Source: an uncultured Bacteroidaceae bacterium (GTDB lineage Bacteria; Bacteroidota; Bacteroidia; Bacteroidales; Bacteroidaceae). From it: a stretch of DNA of 64,000 nucleotides. The stretch is taken from contig CAJONZ010000071.1 of the NCBI GenBank assembly GCA_905236065.1, forward strand, positions 44,587-108,586. The letters run 5' to 3'. Shown here piece by piece: positions 24,605 to 46,066 of this stretch. The position numbers and the translations under genes are program-made. Under the pieces are notes generated by a model, which was not told the DNA's origin, did not search any database, and worked only from the letters and a program-made list of their open reading frames with translations. How positions within the stretch are numbered: position 1 is the first letter of the stretch; each line of letters begins with the position of its first letter.

Positions 24605-24611
24605 CTTTGAG

Positions 24612-24684
24612 TCGGGATGAGGCGACTCGAACGCCCGACCCCTACGTCCCGAACGTAGTGCGCTACCAACTGCGCTACATCCCG
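24612..24684 (-). tRNA. tRNA-Pro(CGG)
   Basis: Minus CGGGATGTAGCGCAGTTGGTAGCGCACTACGTTCGGGACGTAGGGGTCGGGCGTTCGAGTCGCCTCATCCCGA; full cloverleaf. Confidence 0.95.
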
Positions 24685-24763: not shown

Positions 24764-24773
24764 AGTGTTTTTG

Positions 24774-24847
24774 TCGGGATGACCAGACTCGAACTGGCGA
24801 CCACACGCCCCCCAGACGTGTACGCTAACCAACTGCGCTACATCCCG
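24774..24847 (-). tRNA. tRNA-Pro(GGG)
   Basis: Minus CGGGATGTAGCGCAGTTGGTTAGCGTACACGTCTGGGGGGCGTGTGGTCGCCAGTTCGAGTCTGGTCATCCCGA; loop CTGGGGG. Confidence 0.93.
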
Positions 24848-24884: not shown

Positions 24885-24957
24885 ACTATTTTTTTTGAGA
24901 CATGCAAACATTTCGCAGACTATTTGCAAAAAAAAAGAGTTTTGCAGACCGTAAAGT

Positions 24958-25067
24958 CACGCAGAACTCTATCGGAGATCACGCAGAACTCTTCTCGACT
25001 TCACGCAGAACTGTATTCGTTTGTAGAGTTCTTCTTCATCGCGGCTTCAGTTCGCCGTGAAATCCAC
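24958..25067. repeat. 22-bp-unit intergenic element, copy B (3 direct + 2 inverted units)
   Basis: CACGCAGAACTCTATCGGAGAT CACGCAGAACTCTTCTCGACTT CACGCAGAACTGTATTCGTTTG TAGAGTTCTTCTTCATCGCGGC TTCAGTTCGCCGTGAAATCCAC. Confidence 0.8.
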
Positions 25068-25098
25068 TTCAGCGTTTGTTGAATGTAAGGCGTTCAGT

Positions 25099-25134: not shown

Positions 25135-25160
25135 GATTTGGTGTTTTGCCTGCTTATGCG

Positions 25161-25168
25161 TACCTTCG
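25161..25168 (+). promoter_or_regulatory. -7-like box TACCTTCG
   Basis: Same 16-mer TTATGCGTACCTTCGC as at 8630-8645. Confidence 0.5.
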
Positions 25169-25196
25169 CAGGCAAAAATCAAAGCATTGCAAGAAT

Positions 25197-25343
25197 ATGA
25201 CTTACGAAGAAGCAAAGGAAATGGCCCTGAGTATGCCGGAGGTGGCTACACGGGGGCCGCAGTATGTGGAAGAGTTTGTACAGGGTTTCCTGGAGGCCAT
25301 GAACAGCGGGGAACCGCTTGATGGCAGAAAAGCGGAGGCTTGA
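25197..25343 (+). CDS. small conserved-looking hypothetical protein (48 aa)
   Basis: MTYEEAKEMALSMPEVATRGPQYVEEFVQGFLEAMNSGEPLDGRKAEA; promoter-like box upstream, next gene 4 bp away. Confidence 0.55.
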   Translation: MTYEEAKEMALSMPEVATRGPQYVEEFVQGFLEAMNSGEPLDGRKAEA

Positions 25344-45789: not shown

Positions 45790-45956
45790 GTGTAATTTTT
45801 TGATAAACCTAAAATAGTTTGAGGAAAAAATAAAAAAAAGTTGGAAAAAAATCTTTTTTGGCTGTTTTTGGGTGCTAAAAAGGCATTTTTGAGGTAAGGG
45901 AGCCTGTTCCGTCTGTCATTTGCCCGTTTACGTTTTCCCTTTTTCGTTACAAAAGT

Positions 45957-46066
45957 GACGCAGAACTCTATCGGAGATGACGCAGTACTCTACAAAAGAT
46001 GACGCTGAACTGTATTCGTTTCTACAGTTCAGCGTCATTTTCGATGCAGTTCAGCGTCGTTTTCGG
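45957..46066. repeat. 22-bp-unit intergenic element, copy C (3 direct + 2 inverted units, 110 bp)
   Basis: GACGCAGAACTCTATCGGAGAT GACGCAGTACTCTACAAAAGAT GACGCTGAACTGTATTCGTTTC TACAGTTCAGCGTCATTTTCGA TGCAGTTCAGCGTCGTTTTCGG. Confidence 0.88.

Follow-up and report, generated by a model that had tools for sequence, protein, structure and literature searches.

A species-restricted, helically phased intergenic repeat with unusually even spacing in an uncultured Bacteroidaceae bacterium

The draft genome of an uncultured Bacteroidaceae bacterium (G000, 2.73 Mb) contains at least 91 elements of one design on 59 contigs, as found by a profile scan of fetched stretches. Two of them lie in the stretch of 64,000 nucleotides that we analyzed as a whole (the window). 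The safest statement is that these elements constitute a species-restricted, dispersed intergenic mosaic repeat, the layout of which is unusually rigid and helically phased and the spacing of which along the chromosome is unusually even. Cooperative protein binding at the DNA level combined with past copying in trans is the likeliest mode of action, and we give it a probability of roughly one half. Together with the arrays of related species, the repeat suggests a mobile or chromosome-organising system that has not been described before.

The array occupies positions 24950..25067 of the window on the + strand. Read in this canonical orientation, its left end is followed by three direct units, and past an 8-bp gap come an inverted fourth unit and a degenerate, inverted fifth unit. 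The direct units are 13 bp long and spaced by exactly 22 bp, about two helical turns: unit 1 (ACGCAGAACTCTA, given also as the array core) at 24959..24971, unit 2 (ACGCAGAACTCTT) at 24981..24993 and unit 3 (ACGCAGAACTGTA) at 25003..25015, all on the + strand. Beyond the gap (25016-25023) unit 4 lies on the - strand at 25024..25036 with two mismatches to the core, followed by unit 5 at about 25046..25058, also on the - strand, with three. When up to two mismatches are allowed, the core ACGCAGAACTSTA has 15 matches in the window, where 2.2 are expected, and none of 100 shuffles reaches 15. With the units located and the core in excess over shuffled sequence, the array that the original prediction had placed at 24958-25075 is real, and the tRNA-Pro gene and the small ORF it had described beside the array were confirmed. 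On the left side are tRNA-Pro(GGG) (24773..24847, - strand) as the direct neighbor and tRNA-Pro(CGG) (24611-24684). On the right side lie an ORF of 65 aa without a Pfam match (25146..25343, + strand) and the gene of a MazG-domain protein (PF03819; 25347..25700, + strand). In genomes G063 and G004 (L122, L128) the two tRNA-Pro genes and MazG enclose another gene where the array would be, which we take to resemble a very-short-patch-repair endonuclease gene.

A further copy with the same 3+2 layout is found at 45949..46066 (+ strand, units within 45958-46057), and the ORF downstream of it presumably resembles SusD. This resemblance and a tRNA region that matches records of Bacteroides, Phocaeicola and Prevotella mark the genome as Bacteroidales-like. 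The array at 24958 had been regarded as the second copy of this single partner, a view that cannot be kept for one element of at least 91. Over 99 bp the window copies agree at 74% of positions, which places them at the 52nd percentile of all copy pairs, and both have closer relatives at other places in the genome. They are thus an average pair, and neither was specially copied from the other. The first tail that they have in common, TCGGAGA, is found in 54 of 91 copies as the consensus of the family and hence does not single them out as specially related. What stands of the earlier idea is that the whole element, the units together with their ordered linkers, is the copied entity; a special copying event between the two window arrays does not.

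Across the genome the core has 314 matches at up to one mismatch, against 6 for a reversed control. A covariance model run over the whole genome gave scores for only 150 of 760 candidate places, with both strands of the same copies counted, and 91 is therefore a lower bound. Because the profile used to find the copies was gapless, diverged or indel-bearing copies are under-counted and part of the conservation reflects ascertainment. The common design (->->-><-) consists of three direct units, the 8-bp gap, an inverted unit and then decaying inverted units. In the 91 copies the consensus order is u1-TCGGAGATG-u2-TTCGATTTC-u3-loop-u4, with the canonical left end CCAAAAAT(C/G) ahead of unit 1 and with units 5 and 6 decayed. 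An exact fit to ACGCAGWACTSTW is seen for units 1 to 6 in 56, 88, 89, 73, 12 and 0 of the 91 copies, respectively. Forty aligned copies, of equal length by construction, are gapless across 118 columns (alignment A1 excludes L019 and L027), and the best-strand matches of an indel-tolerant model are nearly all exactly 118 nt long. Within the same copies the mean majority fraction is 0.90-0.94 in the units versus 0.69-0.84 in the linkers and loop. The outer ends are themselves inverted units, the left border being sharp at -72 and the right border gradual. The unit is non-palindromic and the 8-bp loop asymmetric; relative to the three-unit side, the loop is oriented one way in 43 copies, the opposite way in 23 and otherwise in 25. 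Subfamilies have linkers and extended tails in common at unrelated places, which, together with the non-orthologous positions described below, counts in favor of spread by copying.

The elements are evenly spread along the chromosome. The 32 gaps between neighboring copies have a minimum of 8.9 kb and a coefficient of variation (CV) of 0.42, while random placement on the same contigs gives a CV of 0.86 and reached the observed evenness in none of 20,000 simulations. Gaps under 8 kb were not observed at all, against 13.3 expected. Elements near contig ends are about twofold enriched (21 observed versus 10.5 expected within 1.5 kb), and assembly effects thus contribute something. After removal of the elements less than 3 kb from a contig end there were still no short gaps, with 6.5 expected (P 0.0002).

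The repeat in this form belongs to one species. The exact core occurs 148 times in G000, none of 60 relatives has more than two occurrences, and the model scores no higher than 24.1 bits in 44 congeners versus 128 bits in G000. The tandem-unit pattern was found in one unrelated stretch of an 84,980-species collection, from which records near G000 may be left out, and was absent from the viral contigs searched. This single match outside the genus is in a Patescibacteria MAG (L097 3786-3820), where two direct ACGCAGAACTSTW units stand at 22-bp spacing between different flanks, possibly by chance. No match to the tandem pattern of family F2 turned up in 89 genomes that span the order and include G000 as well as another genus of its family.

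Congeners carry arrays of like geometry built from different units, as revealed by a search for architecture only. In 638 kb of G000 the finder recovers 88 of the 91 known copies and reports a single site besides these, and it returned no arrays on shuffled controls of nine stretch sets. The unit GTCCCCGAC has 292 matches in G062 and 379 in G032, and further array units are present in G010, G019, G024, G034, G035 and G068, while the stretches of G026 and G027 gave few or no convincing arrays. Several of the congener units are near-palindromes. Many congener elements have the common ends CCTCAAAA...TTTTGAGG, and 5 of 11 elements located by these ends are exactly 81 bp long. G019 also has three AT-rich arrays that are almost the same in sequence (TTTTATAAAATTCAACTTAAA, with a period of 21 bp), at L205 1227, L206 5221 and L208 13584. 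In another family, Prevotella sp. oral taxon 299 has 22-bp-phased arrays of a AAAAGCATTGCTTTT-like unit; in NC_022111.1 200001-1000000 (L260-L275) they lie in two regions, and long stretches are empty. Arrays in the sampled pairs of genomes are mostly at non-orthologous positions. Arrays upstream of MazG in several species had hinted at positional conservation with turnover of the unit, an idea that failed in an orthology test, in which relatives had an array at 2 of 55 gene ends facing a G000 array versus 6 of 54 opposite ends.

Over-dispersion recurs in some of these genomes when all unit families are pooled: in G010 (13 gaps, CV 0.32, P 0.0001), in G062 (24 gaps, CV 0.48, P 0.0002; G062:C13, with one array and no gap, was excluded) and, after curation, in G034 (7 gaps, CV 0.20, P 0.0001). 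For G034 the curation removed a tandem repeat that looked coding and an array rich in AT; removal of AT arrays alone gave a CV of 0.24 (P 0.0003). By eye, all 13 consecutive gaps of G010 join arrays of different unit families. No significant over-dispersion was detected with the 6 gaps of G068 (P 0.46) or the 4 gaps of G019 (P 0.36), and the arrays of Prevotella sp. oral taxon 299 are clustered rather than even over 800 kb (CV 1.48, P 0.008; four finder or seed matches resembling terminators or chance are omitted from this count). Evenness is thus a feature of this genome and some congeners rather than of the class at large.

The reading that we prefer takes the element as a probably REPIN/BIME-like, species-restricted, dispersed non-coding intergenic repeat of ~100 bp. 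The array would be a fixed set of helically phased putative binding sites, three direct and one inverted, and a protein would bind these units in a cooperative manner, on the same face of the helix throughout. We infer further that the array may spread as a mobile but non-autonomous sequence, with an enzyme acting in trans to copy it, and that copies settling too near an existing array would be lost or never formed, leaving arrays ~20 kb apart. Counted against this reading are that the genome parts and neighbors examined yielded neither a binding protein nor a transposase, that target-site duplications and an empty site were not found, and that the spacing is not even in G068 and G019 and is clustered in Prevotella 299.

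A plain non-autonomous transposon (MITE), in which the units are transposase sites, the spacing reflects target immunity and there is no host function, is possible but on balance unlikely. Mu and Tn7 ends carry several ~22-bp transposase sites each, and target immunity would space their copies. The unit size and spacing of the array resemble such end sites, the over-dispersion fits target immunity, and the common ends and recurrent 81-bp length of the congener elements as well as the species-restricted amplification speak for a MITE. However, several other marks of transposition were not found. The original prediction had suggested a search for target-site duplications, and none emerged at any pair of boundaries in the 91 copies: the best signal (z 5.0, 5 copies) came from tens of thousands of tests and is no convincing excess. 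The empty-site search suggested alongside it, with about a quarter of the own genome in the comparison, also found none. By eye, the element ends have no terminal TG..CA. A related autonomous element was seen neither in 638 kb of the 2.73 Mb nor among the neighbor proteins listed, and among the top 25 families listed for 111 neighbor proteins no function or transposase family recurs (111 of 119 candidates were aligned, 80-520 aa; 8 were omitted). The even spacing in G010, where neighboring arrays are all of different families, moreover argues against a purely unit-specific target immunity.

The same observation leads to a more doubtful reading, a sequence-free, geometry-conserved chromosome-spacing system of one Bacteroidales genus with arrays of helically phased sites every ~10-20 kb, whose families exclude each other as if they were interchangeable. 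In this reading, species would differ in the sequence of the units and in where the arrays lie, but would keep the lattice (22-24 bp, mixed orientation) and the even spacing. Selection would then act on the presence of an array per chromosome stretch, for instance as a topological or nucleoid anchor, and not on its sequence. The Noc, SlmA and MatP systems use dozens of dispersed single short chromosome sites and offer a possible functional model. The elements described here are dispersed like those sites; they differ in being ~100-bp arrays whose unit sequence changes between congeners.

Much less likely is that the arrays are a transcribed RNA element, a terminator or an mRNA stabiliser. Units 3 and 4 are able to form a hairpin, and folding is strong for the 45949 copy (z -6.7 on one strand and -6.1 on the other), but weak for the 24950 copy (z -1.6 and -1.7), and an Rfam scan of the window at gathering score returned three tRNAs only, with no match at the array. 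The arms do not covary: the closing pair of the unit 3/unit 4 stem is matched in 26 of 91 copies, where 45 are expected by shuffling, the loop-centre pair is depleted too, and a few inner pairs are mildly in excess (z 2 to 4). An RNA function of the 24950 copy is thus unsupported by Rfam, folding or pair statistics. The orientation to genes is not fixed either. Predicted genes, called with a simple home-made ORF model, contain none of the 91 copies, and elements occur in all four gene-orientation contexts; the neighboring genes are divergent in 26, convergent in 20 and co-directional in 37 of the 83 cases with both neighbors known, the other 8 elements lying at contig ends with one neighbor gene in view. 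Strand switches account for 46 of 83 gaps with an element, a higher share than the 37 of 114 among gaps of 100 bp or more that lack one (P 0.002). With respect to replication there is no trend, 49 of 91 copies agreeing with GC skew. In the congener G062 half-sites of two kinds mix inside units (41 mixed and 24 self-palindromic among 65 units). Judged from the sequences, paired arms without the covariation of an RNA stem make it most likely that the element acts at the DNA level.

It is highly improbable that the arrays are sites of a tyrosine recombinase. Lox/FRT sites and the TnpI site of Tn4430 have 13-bp arms about an 8-bp spacer and accessory direct repeats, and the array matches this geometry with its 13-8-13 arrangement plus two more direct units. 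In addition, the stop codon of a 340-aa tyrosine recombinase gene (L038 2688-3710) falls inside unit 1 of one array; several congeners have homologues (identity up to 54%), and three of these homologues are within about 500 bp of an array. This reading is attractive in G000, but proximity of arrays is no commoner at recombinase loci (4 of 12) than at loci of the unrelated marker MazG (5 of 15). Moreover, G010, G007 and G035 have arrays and no homologue, the spacers are variable, and a chromosome with 91 active, randomly oriented sites would be scrambled.

A single Y1 transposase is encoded in the genome (PF01797, 147 aa), with an array ~0.9 kb away. Its gene is IS200-like (L020 3900-5000; G000:C10:11900-12993) and adjoins a cluster of a different repeat, GGTTACGGAGCGATGACGC...; sequence like this repeat is also present near some arrays (L042, L084). 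Least probable of all is a REPIN/RAYT system in which this enzyme moves the units as REPs: high copy number, intergenic location and inverted units fit, but the repeat next to the gene is not the array unit, the unit of G000 is no palindrome, the score with the NCBIfam RAYT model is 25 bits against a cut-off of 80, and mobilisation by a RAYT is disfavored by the lack of a PF01797 match in seven array-bearing congeners (G062, G032, G068, G007, G010, G011 and G035).

BIMEs have a role in gyrase binding. The array shares with them a mosaic of short repeats in alternating orientation and an intergenic location, but the available sections of the GTAG/CGTC study report neither a fixed 22-bp lattice nor even chromosomal spacing for REPs or BIMEs (PMC3733652). 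The same sections describe CGTC-type REPs, reported in Bacteroidetes, as lacking a dedicated transposase and as mostly head-to-head dimers of 20-40-bp palindromes, unlike the array. REPINs and RAYT-associated REPs, as far as the accessible text of PMC3116915 describes them, are like the array in their inverted pairs of short conserved sequences, intergenic location, many copies and lineage specificity, and are unlike it in that the array has three direct and one inverted non-palindromic unit at helical spacing and is present in congeners without a Y1 match. Closest by taxonomy is the BrickBuilt MITE of Porphyromonas gingivalis, which in the part of PMC4596501 available has 1-22.8 tandem direct 23-nt units with a leader and a tail, IS5-like terminal repeats and 19 copies. 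Both it and the array belong to Bacteroidales, are always intergenic and species-restricted, have units of ~22-23 nt and lack an internal transposase; by comparison with that text, the array differs in its fixed 3+1 layout at 22 bp, inverted units, absence of leader and tail, at least 91 copies, lack of target duplication and even spacing. The accessible portions of the openly licensed papers searched (including PMC5771137) hold no description of this array.

Short dispersed repeats of bacteria are usually viewed as what transposition has left behind, in clusters or at random. In the present species at least 91 rigid arrays stand at strikingly even intervals, and relatives build the same lattice from other sequences. 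Were the spacing due to target immunity across families, it would be an unusual trace of transposition control. If it is functional, it would expose a chromosome-organising layer in Bacteroidales, one that would be invisible to sequence-based searches because the unit sequence differs from species to species.
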